Shown one piece after another: positions 42,038 through 51,069 of a stretch of 64,000 nt of DNA. The stretch is from Streptomyces sp. Edi2 (lineage in GTDB: Bacteria > Actinomycetota > Actinomycetes > Streptomycetales > Streptomycetaceae). Where the stretch lies: NCBI RefSeq assembly GCF_040253635.1, contig NZ_JBEJGX010000003.1, positions 868,001-932,000 on the forward strand, given 5' to 3'. Within the stretch, counting starts at the first letter, position 1. Each line of letters opens with the position of its first letter. Below the pieces are notes generated by a model. It saw only the letters and a list, made by a program, of their open reading frames with translations. It was not told the origin of the DNA and searched no databases. The position numbers and the translations under genes were made by a program.

Positions 42038-42595
42038 ATGTTTATGAACTCCTCGACGACCCCGCTTGCGTTGCGTCCGGACGCCGACGTCGTCCGGCCG
42101 CTCACAGCCGGGCCCGGCGAAGAGCCACCCCTGGCGGTCGACCGGCTACCCGACGGAAAGTGGCAATTGACCCTGCACGACCTGGAACCCGTATCGGTGC
42201 ACCGGCTGCCGTCCGACGAGGTCCACATCATTCTTGCGCCGCCGGGCGAGGAACCGTCCCACCCCGGGGAGCCGCCGGCCGGCCGGACCCGGCCCGACCC
42301 GGTCCACATCGACACCGCGGCCCGGACGGTCTTCATCAGAGGGCGCCAACTCGACCTGCCACGACTGGAGTTCGATCTGCTCGCCCATCTTGTGCTGCAC
42401 CCCCGGCGGGCCTTCACCCGGGAACAGCTGATGGACGCCGTCTGGCCCAACTGCCACTCCAGCACCCGCACCGTCGACGTCCACATCGCCCGTCTGCGCC
42501 GGCGCCTGGGGCCCGGCCTGCGCGACGCCATCAGCACGGTCTTCGGCATCGGCTACAAGTACCTGCCGGCCGCCCAGGCCGACGACTGCGGCTGA
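42038..42595 (+). CDS. Orphan OmpR/PhoB-type winged-helix regulator
   Basis: The protein has about 185 residues. Its C-terminal half is a complete trans_reg_C winged helix (LPRLEFDLLAHLVLHPRRAF, TREQLMDAVWPNCHSSTRTV, DVHIARLRRRLG, GIGYKYLP). The N-terminal half has no receiver aspartate or receiver fold. It is therefore not a two-component partner in the usual sense. It lies at the edge of the HypX-peptide-ligase cluster and may control it. Confidence 0.82.
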   Translation: MFMNSSTTPLALRPDADVVRPLTAGPGEEPPLAVDRLPDGKWQLTLHDLEPVSVHRLPSDEVHIILAPPGEEPSHPGEPPAGRTRPDPVHIDTAARTVFIRGRQLDLPRLEFDLLAHLVLHPRRAFTREQLMDAVWPNCHSSTRTVDVHIARLRRRLGPGLRDAISTVFGIGYKYLPAAQADDCG

Positions 42596-42787
42596 CGCGC
42601 GCCGCCGCAACGGCCGCACCCGCCACCGGTCCTCCGTGGAGGCAGGCAGCGGGCCGGTGACCGATGAATACCGGCCATCGGCCCGGCTGGGAGGCCCGGA
42701 GTGGGCGAGCCCAGCCGGAGGCCCCGCCTGCCCGCCGTTCCCTTGGCACTCACGCGGCGCTCACGGCACGGGCCGGGGCCGGTCGCC

Positions 42788-44497
42788 TCAGGCCCCGTCA
42801 GGTGAGGTGTTCAGGTGTGCCAGGGCTCCGGCCGCGGGTTCCTTGCGTACGAAGGCCCGGCGCAGGGCGTGATACGGCGCGTCCGGGTCGAAGAAGGTGC
42901 GGTGCATACGGGCCAGTTCGTCCTCCCGGTAGGCGGTGAGGGGCCGCTCGGCCTCGTCGCGTTCCCGGGACGCCTTCTTCGTGGCGATCCGGGCCTGGGT
43001 CGCGGGCGCCGATGCCAGCCGGACGGCGAGGCGGGCGGTCTGTGCGGCGAAGTCCTGCGCGGTGCAGTCGATGATCCGGTCGACCAGGCCGAGCCGCGCA
43101 CCGGCCGCCGCGGTCATCGGCAGGGCGCGGGCCATCAGCTGCCCGGCCACCTCGGGGCCCGCCCGGCCGGGCAGCGTATAGGTCCAGTACTCCGAACCGT
43201 AGAGCCCCATCAGCCGGTAGTGCGGGTTGAGCACCACGGCCGAGCGGCACCACACCTCGTCGGCGGCAAGGGCCAGCATCGCCCCACCCGCCGCGGCATT
43301 GCCGCCGAGCGCGGCGACCACCAGCCGGTCGGTGGTGGTCAGGACGGCATGCACCAGGTCGTCCATGGCATTGATATTGGCCCAGGACTCCTCGGCGGGG
43401 TCGGCGGCGGCCTCGATGACATGGAGATGGATGCCGTTGGAGAAGAAGTCCCGGCGGCCGCCGAGGACCAGGACGGAGGTCGGCCGGGCGCAGGCGTGGC
43501 GGTAGGCGGCGAGCAGGCGCCGGCAGTGGTCGGTGCTCATCGCACCGCCGGGGAAGGAGAATTCCAGGAAGCCGGCCGGCCCGTCCTCGCGGTAGCGGAT
43601 GTCGCTCCAGGTACGGGGGCCGTCGCCGGGGTCGAGCGGGGCCGGGATCTCCGGGAGCCGCGGGAGGCGGTCACCCAGCGCCAGTGTGGCGGGCAGCTTG
43701 GGGGTGCCGGGCTCCCCCGGCGCGCGGGGCGCCCGCAGTTCCGGGATCCATACCGCGCCGTCGGCCGTCGCCCGGCAGATCGCGCCGCCTCGGGTGGCGA
43801 GCAGTTCCCCGGGCCGGCCCGTCAGGGTGTCCTCGGGGTGGCCGCCATGCAAATGCCATGTCTCCCCGAGGAGTTCATCGCGTACCCCGGGCTGTGAATC
43901 GGCGGCACGCAACGTGCGTACGACGGTGTCGGTGGGGTCGGACCGCCAGTCGATCCGGCGCAGCTCCTGGCGGAAGGGCGGACAAAGGCGGCCGGGGCGC
44001 GCGGCCTCGGGCAGGGCGGCCTGCGGCTGCGGCCGGTGGGTGCCGGAGGCCACGCGGGCCACGGCCGTCAGGACCGCCTCGACCGCGCCGTCGGCGATCT
44101 CGCCCCGGTACAGGTCGCTCTTGCCCACCGCGGGTACGGGGAAGCCGGCCGCGGCCCAGATGTCGCCGGCGTCCATCTCGTCATTGGCCTGCAGGACCGT
44201 GACGCCCCATCGGTCGGCACCCAGGTGCACCGCCCAGTCCACCGACGACGGGCCGCGGTCGCCGACGGGCCCGGGGTGCACGATCAGGCAGGTGTACGCC
44301 GACCACACCTCGCGGGGCACGGCCGTCTTGAGCATCGGTGCCACGATCAGGTCGGGGGCGTGCCGGCGTACGGCCTCGAGGAGCGGCGTCTCACGCGTCA
44401 CCAGCTCCACGCCCACGTGGTGCCCCCGCTCGCCGAGTTCCGCGTAGACGCGCTGCGTCAGGCTGTTGAACGCGCCGGCGATGAGCAGAATGCGCAC
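42788..44497 (-). CDS. hypX: HypX-like formyltransferase/enoyl-CoA hydratase fusion
   Basis: The 569-residue protein has an N-terminal formyl-THF-dependent formyltransferase domain (HPGPVGDRGPSSVDWAVHLG near residue 73) and a C-terminal crotonase domain (FFSNGIHLHVIEAAADPAEE, NINAMDDLVHAV, then NPHYRLMGLYGSEYWTYTLP). This is the exact architecture of HypX, which makes CO from formyl-THF via formyl-CoA for the [NiFe]-hydrogenase active site in aerobes. No hydrogenase or other hyp genes occur in the window. It is divergent from a Cys-containing repeat peptide and ligase gene. GTG 44497 follows AGGGGAGTCC. Either it serves a distant hydrogenase or its formyl/CO chemistry is used in the neighbouring pathway. 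Confidence 0.85.
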   Translation of the reverse strand: MRILLIAGAFNSLTQRVYAELGERGHHVGVELVTRETPLLEAVRRHAPDLIVAPMLKTAVPREVWSAYTCLIVHPGPVGDRGPSSVDWAVHLGADRWGVTVLQANDEMDAGDIWAAAGFPVPAVGKSDLYRGEIADGAVEAVLTAVARVASGTHRPQPQAALPEAARPGRLCPPFRQELRRIDWRSDPTDTVVRTLRAADSQPGVRDELLGETWHLHGGHPEDTLTGRPGELLATRGGAICRATADGAVWIPELRAPRAPGEPGTPKLPATLALGDRLPRLPEIPAPLDPGDGPRTWSDIRYREDGPAGFLEFSFPGGAMSTDHCRRLLAAYRHACARPTSVLVLGGRRDFFSNGIHLHVIEAAADPAEESWANINAMDDLVHAVLTTTDRLVVAALGGNAAAGGAMLALAADEVWCRSAVVLNPHYRLMGLYGSEYWTYTLPGRAGPEVAGQLMARALPMTAAAGARLGLVDRIIDCTAQDFAAQTARLAVRLASAPATQARIATKKASRERDEAERPLTAYREDELARMHRTFFDPDAPYHALRRAFVRKEPAAGALAHLNTSPDGA

Positions 44498-44855
44498 AGC
44501 GGACTCCCCTGGGGCTGGAACCGGTCAGCGGGTGATTGTCGTGATCGTTCCCCACGGGCGGCTGTCCGGCGACGGAGCCGCGCCAGGGTCACCCGATCGA
44601 CGGCCGCCGGGCGGCCCAATGTCCGCCGGGGACGTTGCCTGACGATCGTTGCCTGACGGCACGTCAGTTAGTTCCGTCCGAAGATCATCTGGACGGAATC
44701 CCGCCAAAGTTGGCGCACTCCATATGCTTCCGCAGACCGCGACATTGCCATTAATTGACATTCACTTGGTCATACTTTTACCTTCGGTGTGGGGCATCAG
44801 CGCAGGTCAGCGCCGTATGCCCGGTTCGTCTTCCGTACTCTCACCGGAGGTTCCC
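44498..44855. promoter_or_regulatory. Divergent promoter region between hypX and the repeat-peptide gene
   Basis: About 360 bases. The half nearest the peptide gene (44680-44790) is notably AT-rich (ATTAATTGACATTC and nearby), with TTGACA-like sequence at 44755, consistent with a promoter for the peptide operon. No ORF is seen. Confidence 0.5.
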
Positions 44856-45011
44856 ATGGAGCAGCTCATCAAGAAGATGGCCCAGGACCAGGTCTGGCAG
44901 AGCTGGCTGGCTGCCAACTCCGCACAGCAGGCGGCGAAGAACGGCTGCATCAGTGCGGCACCGAAGGCGGGCTGCATCAGCGCCGCGCCCAAGGCCGGCT
45001 GCATCTCCTGA
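44856..45011 (+). CDS. Repeat-core precursor-like peptide with three GCIS units
   Basis: The 51-residue peptide has ATG 44856 after GGAGG (44846-44850). The N-terminal 30 residues (IKKMAQDQVWQSWLAANSAQ region) form an amphipathic leader-like helix. The C-terminus is GCIS, AAPKA, GCIS, AAPKA, GCIS, with Cys at 31, 40 and 49 exactly nine residues apart. The two 27-base repeats differ at five third positions and no amino acids. A PaaK-like adenylating enzyme, a GRDP-like protein and an exporter follow on the same strand. This is the pattern of a RiPP precursor; no known class fits by eye. Confidence 0.8.
   Translation: MEQLIKKMAQDQVWQSWLAANSAQQAAKNGCISAAPKAGCISAAPKAGCIS
44943..45008 (+). repeat. 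27-base coding repeat, two full copies plus partial
   Basis: Copies at 44943-44969 and 44970-44996, with a 12-base start of a third at 44997. All differences between the two copies are synonymous. Confidence 0.9.
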
Positions 45012-45153
45012 CCCTCGCGCCTCAGGCGTCCGGAGCGGACCGGCGATCACCGGAGGGCGGACCACCCCCGCCCTCCGGCCACCGGCCCGCTCCGGGCACC
45101 ACCCCTCTGCATTCCCGTGTGGGCACCGCACCCCGACCAAGGACGAGGAAGCC

Positions 45154-46392
45154 ATGGATGGTCAGCCGACCGCCGAGGTCATCGAGCAGATCCGCGACAT
45201 ACCGATCTACCGGGCGTCGCTGGCGAAAGGCCACTTCCCCCTGCTCGACAAGCCGGAGATCGCGCGCGGCTTCCCCGACAACTGGATGACCCCCCGGCTT
45301 TCCGCGGCCCTGGAGTCCGGAGAGGCGGAGTTCGTTCTCTCCACCGGCACCCACCACGCCCGGATGCAGATCATCCGGCCCCCGTATTTCCTACTGCACT
45401 CCTACTACCGGCTGTGGAGCGAACACCCCGATATCGCCGGCACCTGGGAAGCGGGCTGCCGACGGGTCTCCCTGACCACGGTGCTGGCCACGGAACACGT
45501 GGCACGGGTCAATGCCGCACGGCGCGGTACGCCGCCGGATCCGGTGCCCGCCCTCGCCGACCGGCAGCTCGATGCGCGTACCTGCTACCTCAATCTGCGG
45601 CTCGATCCGGCGCTGTGGGAGCGCGACGAGGTGGTGCGGATGCTCCAGGAGATCAAGGCCGCCGCGCAGGCGCACCCGCGCGGCTGGTACCACCTGGACT
45701 GCTCCGGATACCACCTGGCGCATCTGCTGCGGAAGGTCGCCGAATGGGGGCTGTGGGACGACTTCCCGCCGCCCGCCAGCATCATCCACGCCTACGAGTA
45801 CACCCCGGTGAACGTCCGGCGTTTTCTGCACCAGCACTTCACCTGCCCGGTCATCGACCTGTTCGGCAGCACCGAGCTCGGCTACCTCTACTTCAGCGAC
45901 CGCCGCGGCACCTACCGGCCGCATCTCGACAAGATGAGCGTCGAACTTCATCCGGTCGCCGACGGCAGCACGATCCACCAGCTCATCGTCACCAGTGTGC
46001 GCAACCCGTTCATGCCGCTGGTGCGGTACCGCTCGGGCGACTGTGTGCGCACCGTGGACGGAACGCCGGACCCGGAAAAGATCACCCAATTCTGCGGCCG
46101 TGAAAAGGAATTGCTCGACACTTCGCACGGTCCCGTCGCGCAGGGCGACCTCGACCGGTGTATCGGCGAGGCGTCCCCGCAGGTCTTCGTCTACCAGTTG
46201 CAGCTGACCGGCGAGGCGACGGCGAGGCTGGTGTACACGACGTTCGACGGCACGCCCGTCGAGCCCGACGGGGTCGCCGCGCTGGAGGAAGCCCTCGGTG
46301 AACTGACCGGGCGGCGCTGCCGGCTCGACCACCGCCCGCACCTCCCCATCGGGAAGTCGGGAAAGTACGCCTGGCTCACGACCGGCGCCTGA
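45154..46392 (+). CDS. PaaK-like adenylate-forming enzyme
   Basis: The 412-residue protein resembles phenylacetate-CoA ligases and related adenylating enzymes: a Gly/Thr-type loop (VLSTGTHHARMQI), DLFGSTELGYLYFSD (acid-binding/AMP region), RYRSGDCVRTVDG (ribose contact Asp) and a C-terminal GKSGKYAW with the candidate catalytic Lys. It should activate a carboxylic acid as acyl-AMP and pass it to a thiol or amine. Lying 140 bases after the repeat-peptide gene, it may activate a carboxylate of that peptide or load an acyl group onto its Cys, Ser or Lys. ATG 45154 follows GAGGAAG. Confidence 0.83.
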   Translation: MDGQPTAEVIEQIRDIPIYRASLAKGHFPLLDKPEIARGFPDNWMTPRLSAALESGEAEFVLSTGTHHARMQIIRPPYFLLHSYYRLWSEHPDIAGTWEAGCRRVSLTTVLATEHVARVNAARRGTPPDPVPALADRQLDARTCYLNLRLDPALWERDEVVRMLQEIKAAAQAHPRGWYHLDCSGYHLAHLLRKVAEWGLWDDFPPPASIIHAYEYTPVNVRRFLHQHFTCPVIDLFGSTELGYLYFSDRRGTYRPHLDKMSVELHPVADGSTIHQLIVTSVRNPFMPLVRYRSGDCVRTVDGTPDPEKITQFCGREKELLDTSHGPVAQGDLDRCIGEASPQVFVYQLQLTGEATARLVYTTFDGTPVEPDGVAALEEALGELTGRRCRLDHRPHLPIGKSGKYAWLTTGA

Positions 46393-46429
46393 CTCGCCCG
46401 GACGACTTCCTCACCCGGACAGGAGAAGC

Positions 46430-46948
46430 ATGACCACCCCGCCGCGGATATCCCCCGACGCTCTCACGGACTTGCTCGGCAAGGCGCTCCACACCGAAGT
46501 GGTGACGCATTTCGACGGCAAGAGCGCCGCGCCGCGAGAGTTCGTGGAGCGCCAGGTCACCGAGTGCCTGCGCTATCTCTATCTCGTCTCCCGGCACCAC
46601 GACCGGCTCGGCGGTCTGTTCCTGCCCGTCGAGCAGGACATCGACGAGATCTGGCACTACCTCATCCTGCAGACCCGCGAATACCGTGCGCTGTGCGAGG
46701 AACGGCTGCCGGGGCGCTTCTTCATCGAACACCGCAGCATCGCCTACGAGGACTACCAGCAGGAGCCGGGCCGCGAGCAGGCACTCGAAGAGGCGCTGCG
46801 CTGGATTCCGCTGTACTGCCGGGAATTCGGGCCGTTCGACGAGGGGGCACTGCCGCACTGGACCATCGTGCGCTTCCTCCATGAGCAGATGGGGGTGTCA
46901 CTCGCGGACATCGCGGCGCTGGAACCGGCGGAGTCGGCGACGGCGTAA
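46430..46948 (+). CDS. GRDP-like (glycine-rich-domain family) protein
   Basis: The 172-residue protein has the hallmark P-x-DIDEIWHYLILQTREY then C, then GRFFIEHR, resembling the core of GRDP/DUF1399 proteins, whose conserved Trp-His, Cys and His residues could bind metal. Biochemical function of the family is unknown. AGGAGAAGC precedes ATG 46430; it is 37 bases after the ligase gene, so cotranscribed. In this cluster a chaperone or metal-dependent modifying role is possible, not shown. Confidence 0.68.
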   Translation: MTTPPRISPDALTDLLGKALHTEVVTHFDGKSAAPREFVERQVTECLRYLYLVSRHHDRLGGLFLPVEQDIDEIWHYLILQTREYRALCEERLPGRFFIEHRSIAYEDYQQEPGREQALEEALRWIPLYCREFGPFDEGALPHWTIVRFLHEQMGVSLADIAALEPAESATA

Positions 46949-47016
46949 AGCCTGTCTTCACCGGTCCTTGAAGCCCGTCTCGTCCAGTCCCCGTCCGGCG
47001 CGAACCGAAAGGAATC

Positions 47017-48336
47017 ATGAGGGCTCGCCACGCTGACCCTGCCGAGGGCGAAGTACCGGAACAGCGGCGGATTCTGGCTGTCCTGGTCCTCTCCCAGATC
47101 CTCAGCGGCGCAGGTCTCGCCGCGGGGATCACCGTCGGCGCGCTGCTCGCCGAAGAGATGCTCGGCTCGACCGGCCTGGCGGGCGTGCCCAGTGCGCTGT
47201 TCACCGCCGGAGCCGCGCTCGGCGCCGTCGGCATCGGCCAGGTCTGCCGGCGCCGCGGCCGGCGCCCCGGTCTTGCGCTCGGCTACGCCGTCGGGGCGCT
47301 GGGCAGCCTCGGAGTCGTGGTGGCGGCCGCCCTCGGTCAGGCGCTGCTGTTGTTCGCGTCCCTGTTCGTCTACGGAGCGGGCACCGCGACAAATCTGATG
47401 GCACGGTACGCGGGTGCGGATCTGGCCTCGTCCGCACGGCGCGGACGGGCCGTGAGCACCGTGCTCTTCGCCACCACGCTCGGTGCGGTGATCGGCCCCA
47501 ACCTGGTGACGCTGACGGGCCGGGTCGCACACTCCTGGGGCATCCCCCGGCTCGCCGGGCCGTTCCTGCTGGCCGTCGCCGCGTTCGGGGCGGCCGCGGT
47601 GGTCCTGGCCGTTCTGCTGCGGCCCGATCCGCTGCGGCTGGCCGAAAAGCTGGCCGCGGCGCAGGCCGGGACGGCAGCCGAGGGACCCGGGGACGAGGGC
47701 GGCGGCGGACCGGATGCGCGGCCGGAGGCCCGGCCGGACCGGCGCGGGGTGGTCACCGGCACCGGGATCATGGTCCTCACCCAGCTGGTGATGATCGCCG
47801 TGATGACGATGACGCCGGTACACATGCAGGCACACGGTCATGGCACCCAGGCGGCCGGCTGGGTCATCGCCCTTCATGTCGGAGCGATGTTTCTGCCCTC
47901 GCCGCTCACCGGCCTGCTGGTCGACCGGGTCGGCCGGCGGTGGATCGCCGGTGCGTCCGGTCCGGTCCTGCTCGCCGCCGGGGTGGTGGCCGCCGCGGCA
48001 CCGGACTCCGTGCCCGCGCTCGCCGCGGCACTGGTGCTGCTCGGCCTCGGCTGGAACTTCGGGCTGGTCAGCGGCACCGCGCTGGTCACCGACGCGCTGC
48101 CGCCCGCCCGTCGTGCGTCGGCGCAGGGGCTGGTGGACGTCGGCATCGCCCTCGCGGGCGCCACCGGGGGGATGCTCTCGGGCCCGGTCGTCGTGCTGGC
48201 CGGCTACCCGACGCTGGCACTGGCCGGCGGCATCCTCGCGATGGCACTCATTCCCGTCCTCGCCTGGGCGGCCCGCCGGCCGCCGCACCCCGTCACCGCG
48301 CCCGCGGCTCCCCTCACGGAAACGGAACAGACATGA
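47017..48336 (+). CDS. Major facilitator superfamily transporter
   Basis: The 439-residue protein has 12 predicted helices. The A-motif-like loop CRRRGRRPGLALGYAVG (after helix 2) and LVDRVGRRWIAG in the second half mark MFS. A cytoplasmic loop with Gly/Arg-rich sequence lies at about 220-240. Placed last in the peptide-ligase-GRDP operon (68 bases after), it is a natural exporter for the product. ATG 47017 follows AAAGGA. Confidence 0.88.
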   Translation: MRARHADPAEGEVPEQRRILAVLVLSQILSGAGLAAGITVGALLAEEMLGSTGLAGVPSALFTAGAALGAVGIGQVCRRRGRRPGLALGYAVGALGSLGVVVAAALGQALLLFASLFVYGAGTATNLMARYAGADLASSARRGRAVSTVLFATTLGAVIGPNLVTLTGRVAHSWGIPRLAGPFLLAVAAFGAAAVVLAVLLRPDPLRLAEKLAAAQAGTAAEGPGDEGGGGPDARPEARPDRRGVVTGTGIMVLTQLVMIAVMTMTPVHMQAHGHGTQAAGWVIALHVGAMFLPSPLTGLLVDRVGRRWIAGASGPVLLAAGVVAAAAPDSVPALAAALVLLGLGWNFGLVSGTALVTDALPPARRASAQGLVDVGIALAGATGGMLSGPVVVLAGYPTLALAGGILAMALIPVLAWAARRPPHPVTAPAAPLTETEQT

Positions 48337-48440
48337 ACATCTCTTCGCTGTACGGATGTTCCCGGCTGTTCTACGGGGGATTCTGGAAACTTGGCGTCAT
48401 TTCTCGTTATCACGCCCGAAACCTGGATGCTGCACTGTGA
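48333..48440 (+). CDS. Possible 35-residue peptide coupled to the MFS gene
   Basis: ATG 48333 overlaps the transporter stop (ATGA). The 35-residue product is rich in aromatic residues (SLYGCSRLFYGGFWKLGVIS) with only about 60% GC at third positions, unlike neighbouring genes. Too short to be sure; could be chance. Confidence 0.25.
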   Translation: MNISSLYGCSRLFYGGFWKLGVISRYHARNLDAAL

Positions 48441-48481
48441 AGGCAGAGTGGAACCGTGCGGACGAACCACGGGGGGCGACG

Positions 48482-48904
48482 ATGCGGAAGGACGCCTGCG
48501 TAGCGGGCATACCCGTGCTGCGCCTGTGCCGTATGTCGCTGACCGCACTGCTGGTGGTCGCGGCCTTCCTGCTGGGTGGTGGCGCGGCCGCGCCCGGTGC
48601 GGCGAAGACCGCATTCTCCGCCTCGTCCGCCGCGAAGTCCGCGAGCACGTCGGCCGTCAAGCCCGGCTATGAGAGCGAAGAGGAAAAGGCGAAGCGCGAG
48701 GCCGAGCGCGGCCAGCCCCGGCGCACCGCCCGGACCTCCGTCGGCGTTCCCCAGCACACCGGCCGCCCGCTGCCGCCGTTCAGCGCGGGCGCCCTCACTC
48801 CCGTCGCCACGACAGCCTCCGGTGACCCGGCGGCCGGCAGCTCCACCAAGGCCGCGTCCAGACGGGCCGGGCTGACCGTCCTGCACTGCGTCTTCCGCTG
48901 CTGA
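48482..48904 (+). CDS. Small secreted protein with two C-terminal cysteines
   Basis: The 140-residue protein has an N-terminal signal peptide (LRLCRMSLTALLVVAAFLLGGGAAAPGAA), a charged segment (YESEEEKAKREAERG), a Pro/Ser/Thr-rich middle and an unusual end, TVLHCVFRC. No domain recognised. GTG 48437 in frame is an alternative start. It lies after the peptide cluster and may or may not belong to it. Confidence 0.6.
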   Translation: MRKDACVAGIPVLRLCRMSLTALLVVAAFLLGGGAAAPGAAKTAFSASSAAKSASTSAVKPGYESEEEKAKREAERGQPRRTARTSVGVPQHTGRPLPPFSAGALTPVATTASGDPAAGSSTKAASRRAGLTVLHCVFRC

Positions 48905-48994
48905 GAGCGGCGTGGTGGCCTGCCCCACCCCCGCACCATGCACCTTTCCGCCACCACCCCACAGTGGCACCACTCATCAGCAGGAGACCTCCTC

Positions 48995-49597
48995 GTGGAG
49001 ACCTTCATTCAGCATGCCCGGGGCCTGACGGCCCGTATCGCCGACCGGCGGGAGGAACAGGAGACCTACGGCCGGCTCGCGGCCGGACAGTCCCCCCTCG
49101 CCCTGTTCATCACCTGCTCCGACTCGCGGGTCGTCCCCGCCCTGATCACCGGGGCGCGGCCCGGCGAACTCTTCGAACTGCGGACCGCCGGCAACGCCGT
49201 GCCCGTCTACCGCGAGGACATGGCGGCCTGCGCGGAAGCGGCCACCATCGAGTACGCGATGCGCGTCCTGGGCGTGGCCGACATCGTGGTGTGCGGTCAT
49301 TCGCACTGCGGCGCGGTCGGCGCCAAGGCCCGCGGTGAGGACCTGACCGGCGCACCCGCCGTACGGGACTGGTTGGCGGAGCAGTTGTCCGACCACCTGC
49401 CCGACGACGCGGAACCGACCGTCGCCGCCGCGGTCCAGCACCACGTGCGCGAACAGCTCGACCGGCTGCGTGGCTACCCCTGTGTCCGGGAGCGGCTGGA
49501 CGCCGGCGAGGTGACGCTGCACGGGTGGTTCTACGAAGTGCACACCGGCCTGGTGGCCGCGCATCACCCGGCCTCCGACCTGTTCCTCCCGCTGTGA
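48995..49597 (+). CDS. Beta-class carbonic anhydrase
   Basis: The 200-residue protein has the zinc-binding pattern CSDSRV (about 36-41) and GHSHCGAVG (about 95-103) typical of beta-carbonic anhydrases, plus ELRTAGNAVP. It interconverts CO2 and bicarbonate. The start is GTG 48995 after AGGAGAC. Only 17 bases separate it from the SulP transporter downstream. Confidence 0.92.
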   Translation: METFIQHARGLTARIADRREEQETYGRLAAGQSPLALFITCSDSRVVPALITGARPGELFELRTAGNAVPVYREDMAACAEAATIEYAMRVLGVADIVVCGHSHCGAVGAKARGEDLTGAPAVRDWLAEQLSDHLPDDAEPTVAAAVQHHVREQLDRLRGYPCVRERLDAGEVTLHGWFYEVHTGLVAAHHPASDLFLPL

Positions 49598-49614: not shown

Positions 49615-51069
49615 ATGAAGCGATTCACCTCCATCCGGGCGGACTTCACCGCCTCCCTCGTCGTCTTCCTCGTGGCCGTCCCGCTGTGTGTCGGGGTGGC
49701 CGTCGCCTCCGGGGTACCGGCCGAACTGGGGCTTGTCACCGGTGTGGTCGGCGGACTGCTCACCGGTCTGCTCCCGGGCAGCAGCCTCCAGGTCAGCGGC
49801 CCCGCCGCCGGTCTGACGGTGCTGGTCTTCGAGGCCGTCAAGGAGTACGGCATCGGGGCGCTCGGCGCGCTGGTACTGGCGGCCGGCGTACTGCAACTGA
49901 CCATGGGCGCCCTGAAGTTGGGGCGCTGGTTCCGGGCGATCTCGGTCGCCGTGGTCCAGGGCATGCTGGCCGGCATCGGCCTGGTCCTGATCGCCGGACA
50001 GCTCTACGCCCTCGCGGACGCCAAGGCGCCGGGCAGCGGACTCGCCAACCTCGGCGGTATGCCGGGCCTGGTCACCGCCACCGTGGGGTCGGGGACGGCA
50101 CTGGCCGCGCTCGCCATCGGCGCCGGGACCATCGCCGTCCTGGTGCTGTGGCCGCGCTGGCGGCGCGCCGCGCGGATCCTGCCCGCACCACTGGCCGCGG
50201 TGGCGCTCGCCACCACTGCCGTATGGGCGCTGGATATGCCCGTCGCACGCGTCGAGGTCAGCGGTCTGCTGGACGCGATCCAGCCGCCCGGCCTCGCCGA
50301 CCTCGGCCGGCTCACCGATATCGCGGTGCTCGGCACGGTCCTCGCGTTCGCGCTGATCGCGTCCGCCGAGTCCCTGTTCAGCGCCGCCGCGGTCGACCGG
50401 CTGCACGACGGGCCGCGCACGGACTACGACAAGGAGCTGATGGCCCAGGGCGCGGGCAACACCGTCTGCGGTCTGCTCGGTGCCCTGCCGATGACCGCCG
50501 TCATCGTCCGCAGCGCGGCCAATGTCCAGGCGGGCGCGAAGACCAAGGCCTCGCGGGTGCTGCACGGCGTCTGGCTGCTGGTGTTCGCCGCGGCGTTCCC
50601 GGCCGCGCTGGGCGTGGTGCCGGTGGCCGCGCTGGCGGGCGTGCTGGTCCATGCGGGCTGCAAGCTCATCCCGCTGCGCGAGCTACGGCCGCTGTGGCGC
50701 GAACACCGCGGCGAGGCGGTGGTTCTCCTGGTCACGGCCCTCGCGATCGTGACGGTCAACATGTTCGAGGGCGTCCTGATCGGTCTGCTGCTGGCGATCG
50801 CGAAGACGGCGTGGGAGACCTCCCATGTGCACCTCGAGGTCGACACCCCCGAGGACGAGGACGAGCCGGTGCGGGTACGCGCCGTCGGCAACGCCACGTT
50901 CCTGCGGCTGCCCAAGATCCTCGATCAGCTCGACGCGCTGCCCGCCGAGCGGGGAGTGGAACTCGATCTGAGCGGGCTGCGCCATCTCGACCACGCCTGT
51001 GGTGCCGCGCTGACGAACTGGGCCGAGCAGCACCGTCGTACCCGGCGGGCCGTGGAGCTGGTGTCCTGA
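49615..51069 (+). CDS. SulP-family anion transporter, probably bicarbonate
   Basis: The 484-residue membrane protein starts FTSIRADFTASLVVFLVAVP, has about 12 helices and ends in a STAS-like domain (VELDLSGLRHLDHACGAAL). Pairing with a carbonic anhydrase gene 17 bases upstream suggests bicarbonate as substrate, as in the BicA-type/SulP-CA pairs; sulfate is the alternative. Confidence 0.86.
   Translation: MKRFTSIRADFTASLVVFLVAVPLCVGVAVASGVPAELGLVTGVVGGLLTGLLPGSSLQVSGPAAGLTVLVFEAVKEYGIGALGALVLAAGVLQLTMGALKLGRWFRAISVAVVQGMLAGIGLVLIAGQLYALADAKAPGSGLANLGGMPGLVTATVGSGTALAALAIGAGTIAVLVLWPRWRRAARILPAPLAAVALATTAVWALDMPVARVEVSGLLDAIQPPGLADLGRLTDIAVLGTVLAFALIASAESLFSAAAVDRLHDGPRTDYDKELMAQGAGNTVCGLLGALPMTAVIVRSAANVQAGAKTKASRVLHGVWLLVFAAAFPAALGVVPVAALAGVLVHAGCKLIPLRELRPLWREHRGEAVVLLVTALAIVTVNMFEGVLIGLLLAIAKTAWETSHVHLEVDTPEDEDEPVRVRAVGNATFLRLPKILDQLDALPAERGVELDLSGLRHLDHACGAALTNWAEQHRRTRRAVELVS

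Follow-up and report, generated by a model that had tools for sequence, protein, structure and literature searches.

We identified a conserved cassette of three genes in a 64-kb stretch of high-G+C DNA from Streptomyces sp. Edi2 (contig NZ_JBEJGX010000003.1; the whole stretch of 64,000 nt is called the window here). The cassette comprises genes for a short repeat peptide, an adenylate-forming ligase with PaaK fold and a GRDP-like protein. The closest relatives of the ligase are from Streptomyces. In all 80 loci that we compared, a repeat peptide was encoded upstream of the ligase, 60–350 bases before the ligase match (median 129), and a GRDP-like gene was present downstream of the ligase in 79 of them, the exception (L059) being a locus that stops at the end of its contig. 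A first-pass annotation of the window had proposed a peptide-modifying pathway without the usual enzymes for ribosomally synthesized and post-translationally modified peptides (RiPPs), and had named the lack of a conserved peptide beside the ligase as an observation that would speak against it. The linkage of both genes to the ligase across the loci gives good support to the core of this idea. The sequences suggest a RiPP-like or carrier-peptide system, with RiPP membership itself unproven, and to judge from the family libraries and from the literature among the matches listed, it has been undescribed so far.

Conservation of the peptide, the ligase and the GRDP-like protein

Loci were collected by a scan for relatives of the ligase with one genome per species. 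It confirmed 93 places, and we used the 80 best of them (L numbers in this text). The set is mostly from Streptomyces, and genes were called with home-made scripts. In 68 of the 80 loci the flanks reached at least 6 kb upstream and 7 kb downstream of the ligase start; 12 loci had short flanks. Besides Streptomyces, the hosts included Kitasatospora, Kutzneria, Sciscionella, Actinokineospora, two Amycolatopsis and three Sorangium strains. Protein searches added ligases named for Cystobacter and Melittangium and one Paraburkholderia peptide (P0070). We also searched 295 genomes of the genus Streptomyces, in each of which only a small number of first-look candidates was scored. The ligase was found in 36 of these genomes, with one copy each, and a separate profile search for the GRDP-like protein returned the same 36 genomes when the lists were compared by eye. 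We concluded that the ligase and the GRDP-like protein are obligate partners at this sensitivity.

The peptide of the window (MEQLIKKMAQDQVWQSWLAANSAQQAAKNGCISAAPKAGCISAAPKAGCIS) has 51 residues and three GCIS units with cysteines at positions 31, 40 and 49, exactly as the first-pass annotation had described it, and its gene is preceded by the Shine-Dalgarno sequence GGAGG. It has 62 related peptides in the database, the query itself not counted. The peptide genes are under purifying selection, with a ratio of non-synonymous to synonymous differences (pN/pS) of 0.13 for 308 non-independent pairs and single-difference codons only. The database relatives, the presence of one such peptide upstream of the ligase in all 80 loci and the purifying selection together show that the peptide gene is more than a chance reading frame.

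For a closer description of the units we combined the peptides from the 80 loci with the database proteins to a set of 129 distinct strings, some of which have an extended N terminus or a frameshifted end. Counting with the pattern GC[IVL][SCNFA], which fixes Gly and Cys by design and leaves Lys as a free observation, gave 391 units; diverged units such as GYIS in L021 and GRAS in L013 were excluded from this count. The conserved unit is K-x-G-C-[IV]-S. Lys was present three residues before Cys in 384 units, Cys was followed by Ile (372 units) or Val (19 units), and Ser occupied the last position in 387. Asp or Glu was found at position −2 in 75 units. The number of units per peptide varied from two to seven and was three in 103 of the 129 peptides. 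The exact spacing of nine residues that had been noticed in the window peptide is in general only the commonest one (200 of 262 intervals, range 7–18). Most peptides end with the last unit (GCIS in 113, GCVS in 3), six have residues beyond the last GCIS, and the remaining ends are diverged or frameshifted. The peptides are also conserved in their N-terminal part, MEQLIKKMAQDxVWQxWxAANSA. Thus, like a ribosomally encoded RiPP precursor with leader and core, the peptide combines a conserved leader with repeated units under purifying selection. The Sorangium peptides (L070, L071 and L077) carry near-perfect repeats of GCISRKA or GCISKKA, five to seven per peptide, with a spacing of seven.

A promoter-like element of the form TTGAC-N13to17-TTTAC was present 5' of the peptide gene in 65 of 81 cases (80 loci and the window), at a median distance of 98 bases from the ATG. 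The spacing was identical in 64 of these 65 elements (TTGAC-N17-TTTAC, consensus TTGACAnTnnCTTGGnCAnnCnTTTACnTTC). The element was absent in 16 cases, including all three Sorangium loci. On both strands of the 80 loci a looser pattern gave 64 matches, which equals the number of loci with a match at the peptide, and a stricter pattern gave no match away from the peptide. The element is unique in the window and, with up to 3 mismatches allowed, also in the 9.8-Mb genome to which the window belongs.

By sequence alone the ligase had no Pfam match. Its matches to PDB sequences were weak (best E 1.6e-6), and the best NCBIfam score was 32.1 bits against a cut-off of 300 bits. The protein nevertheless keeps the adenylate-forming fold and the adenylation motifs of the PaaK family, and the closest folds include ligases of the NatL2 and AjiA1 type. 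"GRDP-like" is the NCBI name of some relatives of the 172-aa protein. This protein had no Pfam match at E 0.1 in the library copy used; the family PF27765 is precomputed on most of the listed relatives. The predicted model of the GRDP-like protein has a pLDDT of 80, and its best fold match in a viral library was a GRDP-like protein of a giant virus (E 0.031, probability 1.00).

Genes in the vicinity of the cassette

The features of the locus are listed in Table 1. The order and strand of the ligase, GRDP-like and exporter genes 3' of the peptide were as first annotated, and so was the presence of a divergent HypX gene and of a regulator without receiver domain. The end point chosen at that time (48,904) is the stop of the small protein that precedes the carbonic anhydrase.

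Table 1. Positions of the cassette and its neighbors in the window.
Feature	Position	Strand	Remark
Promoter-like element TTGACAnTnnCTTGGnCAnnCnTTTACnTTC	44755..44785	+	about 100 bases 5' of the peptide gene
Repeat peptide, 51 aa	44856..45011	+	conserved leader (residues 1-27), three K-x-G-C-I-S units
Unit 1, KNGCIS	44937..44954	+	residues 28-33
Unit 2, KAGCIS	44964..44981	+	residues 37-42
Unit 3, KAGCIS	44991..45008	+	residues 46-51
PaaK-fold adenylate-forming ligase, 412 aa	45154..46392	+	
GRDP-like all-alpha protein, 172 aa	46430..46948	+	
MFS exporter	47017..48336	+	frequent accessory; MFS_1 E 1.4e-27
Small secreted-type protein, 140 aa	48482..48904	+	C-terminal LHCVFRC; companion of carbonic anhydrase and SulP
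Beta-carbonic anhydrase	48938..49597	+	start codon uncertain; linked accessory; Pro_CA E 8.9e-41
SulP anion transporter with STAS domain	49615..51069	+	linked accessory; Sulfate_transp E 1.9e-58
HypX-like protein (formyltransferase and enoyl-CoA hydratase domains)	42788..44497	-	neighbor, judged outside the system
OmpR-type DNA-binding protein without receiver	42038..42595	+	neighbor, judged outside the core; Trans_reg_C E 4.7e-21

HypX and the regulator had been counted among the members of the pathway, and this part of the earlier interpretation did not hold. Each of the two genes accompanied the trio in 13 of 80 loci (the regulator at >60% identity), and all loci with HypX or the regulator fall into a single clade of 25 rows in the ligase tree, the one that includes the window. 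HypX was present in 136 of the 295 Streptomyces genomes, and by comparison of the lists by eye 121 of these lack the ligase and the trio. No kinase gene was noticed beside the DNA-binding protein of the window.

The exporter is a common member of the loci, though not a universal one. A related MFS gene was located downstream in 58 of 80 loci, among them a remnant of 30 residues (L005) and three with <40% identity, and four further loci had another MFS gene. A related MFS gene with about 60% identity was located about 6 kb 5' of the trio, on the opposite (−) strand, in L018 (306-1840), L020 (852-2039) and L054 (613-1779). Next to this reversed gene, L018 also has a partial GRDP-like frame (107 aa), as if there were a second, broken set. 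A gene for a flavin monooxygenase (similar to flavin-containing or Baeyer-Villiger monooxygenases, FMO/BVMO) was located near the trio in eight of 80 loci (L068-L071 and L077-L080), six of them outside Streptomyces, and is possibly a tailoring enzyme.

Of the 80 loci, 47 had genes for beta-carbonic anhydrase, for SulP or for both at a distance of up to about 8 kb (carbonic anhydrase in 43, SulP in 42). When only the 68 loci with long flanks are considered, the number is 39; 33 of the 80 loci had no such neighbor in the DNA covered. The genes were arranged downstream, upstream on the same strand, upstream divergently or downstream in reversed orientation. We followed these arrangements on a quick tree of the ligase, in which 23 of 78 inner branches had less than 80% support. 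With short-flank loci lacking the two genes set aside (77 rows), the tree required at least 15 changes of arrangement and at least 11 changes of presence. The minima were 16 and 12, respectively, when the short-flank loci were counted as lacking the genes. Among the 48 rows with carbonic anhydrase or SulP, at least seven arrangement changes were required. SulP occurs in 238 of the 295 Streptomyces genomes. A rough chance expectation, based on 1–3 copies in about 8.6 Mb and a stretch of about 17 kb and ignoring phylogeny, is SulP near the trio in less than one of 80 loci. In six genomes without the trio, SulP sits together with carbonic anhydrase in five unrelated settings. The unrelated settings in trio-free genomes make it unlikely that the repeated adjacency to the trio is due to chance. 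According to PMC5489568, SulP clustered with carbonic anhydrase is common in Streptomyces, and bicarbonate transport was suggested with its direction left open.

A small protein ending with HCVFRC precedes the carbonic anhydrase in the window and in 17 trio loci (L001-L005, L007-L013, L015, L036, L037, L046 and L063). Three trio-free genomes (L130, L131 and L132) also encode a small secreted-type protein before the carbonic anhydrase, with a different end. We concluded that the small protein goes with carbonic anhydrase and SulP and not with the trio. In Sorangium L071 a carbonic anhydrase-like gene of another subtype lies downstream; it is not included in the 43. The link of carbonic anhydrase and SulP to the trio may reflect self-protection, if the product hits carbonic anhydrase or the bicarbonate supply, or it may reflect substrate supply or a shared preference for the same genomic region. 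The two genes are best read as serving self-protection or bicarbonate supply.

Possible action of the ligase on the peptide and alternative readings

On balance we favor the view that the cassette is a self-contained peptide-modifying system, RiPP-like or carrier-peptide-like, whose ligase would put an acyl group on Cys or Lys in each of the units. In the RiPP-like case the acylated units would be the product, in the carrier-like case the peptide would only hold it. The leader would dock the enzymes. From a common cellular acid the ligase would form an acyl-AMP, whose acyl group would then be passed on to the thiol of the Cys in every unit, and the Lys that is conserved three residues before this Cys could be the final acceptor. 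The GRDP-like protein would be an obligate partner, either for the loading or for a second step. The product would be a small molecule after release or would consist of short modified fragments, and it would leave the cell through the MFS exporter where this is present. Since the peptide offers several like sites, the ligase belongs to a family that activates carboxylates, and a conserved carboxylate side chain is missing from the unit, the natural acceptor would be the Cys thiol or the adjoining Lys amine.

Several points weigh against acylation of the units. Linkage is no proof that the ligase acts on the peptide, and no activity, product or substrate is known for the cassette, nor a function for the GRDP-like protein. 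No protease or peptide exporter was recognized as a conserved neighbor, and 22 of 80 loci lack a related MFS gene downstream. The Cys of a unit is lost in a few peptides (e.g., L021 and L013), so not every unit is essential.

It is possible, though we would not expect it, that the peptide is not the product at all but, as in pearlins, a reusable scaffold, on which each Cys holds a small acid during its alteration until the finished molecule is released. The multiple identical sites per peptide and their conserved sequence, as opposed to the diversity usual in bioactive core peptides, fit such a carrier, as do the MFS type of the exporter and the flavin monooxygenases at eight of the 80 loci. 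No loaded carrier is known, however, and an enzyme like the LanB-like peptide aminoacyl-tRNA ligases (PEARLs), which act on known carrier peptides, was found neither among the window proteins scanned nor as a conserved neighbor family.

We consider it unlikely that the ligase works alone to make a small-molecule amide or ester, as NatL2 and AjiA1 do, with the Cys-rich peptide as a metal-binding, redox or regulatory accessory. Such ligases are among the closest folds, Cys repeats can bind metal, and carbonic anhydrase, a zinc enzyme, is often encoded nearby. A simple metal site would however not need Lys and Ser, which are conserved in each unit, and among the genes linked to the cassette none for an aromatic acid is conserved.

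The acid activated by the ligase might be bicarbonate, a variant to which we give very little weight. CO2 would form a carbamate on the Lys of the unit, the ligase would adenylate it, and Cys (or Ser) would close a carbonyl-bridged (thio)carbamate ring, for which a mass shift of about +26 Da per unit, with label from 13C-bicarbonate, is predicted. Dethiobiotin synthetase, which activates a carbamate with ATP, is comparable. Such a chemistry would account for the conservation of both Lys and Cys, for the lack of a conserved acid-making gene, and for the carbonic anhydrase and SulP genes, one or both, at so many of the loci.

Modification of the C terminus, one of the options named in the first-pass annotation, is most improbable. 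In this case the ligase would activate the C-terminal carboxylate of the peptide and join it to an amine, in line with the activation of carboxylates by PaaK-type enzymes and with the GC[IV]S end of 116 of the 129 peptides. The units are internal repeats, however, which are conserved equally well, and the six extended peptides do not end at a GCIS. A defense, toxin-antitoxin or mobile-element module is hardly credible: the cassette is small and compact and has a scattered distribution in the genus, but none of four proteins had a PADLOC match, there was no plasmid match and no viral contig with a relative, and most loci have the exporter.

Relation to known systems

Among the window proteins scanned with Pfam we found no YcaO, LanB/M, radical SAM or ATP-grasp enzyme, and none of them formed a conserved neighbor family at the other loci, whose neighbors were clustered and partly scanned with Pfam. 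In multi-core RiPP precursors, e.g., of cyanobactins or dikaritins, a leader precedes repeated units that are separated by short spacers. The repeat peptide shares this architecture, but the enzymes are unrelated and its unit is nearly invariant between species. To our knowledge, the pair of PaaK-fold ligase and GRDP-like protein is not used in any described RiPP class.

The PaaK-like ligases NatL2, AjiA1 and ClxA of benzoxazole pathways join small aromatic acids. They have only 16–19% identity to the ligase of the cassette and, unlike it, are not known to be tied to a peptide gene. The pearlins, carrier peptides for 3-thiaglutamate and ammosamide, are similar in that a short ribosomal peptide serves as scaffold for a small molecule. 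Their C terminus is extended with aminoacyl-tRNA by the PEARL, whereas the cassette has an AMP-forming ligase and internal repeats. The acyl-protein synthetase LuxE is also AMP-forming and puts an acyl group on a protein Cys. It differs by loading itself in fatty-acid reduction, without a known peptide substrate. We know of no function for the GRDP-like fold; in the genomes searched, the bacterial branch described here showed strict linkage to the ligase. In the titles and the beginnings of abstracts among the matches listed, we recognized no account of the peptide or the trio. The Pantoea cluster with a PaaK-like gene in PMC7744662 is apparently unrelated.

If the ligase modifies the peptide, the PaaK-fold ligase and the GRDP-like protein would represent a peptide-modifying enzyme pair outside all RiPP classes known to us, present in about one eighth of the Streptomyces genomes sampled, in Sorangium and in several Pseudonocardiales. 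This would also assign a role to the bacterial branch of the GRDP-like fold, and the link to carbonic anhydrase and SulP would be a clue to the target or the substrate of the system.

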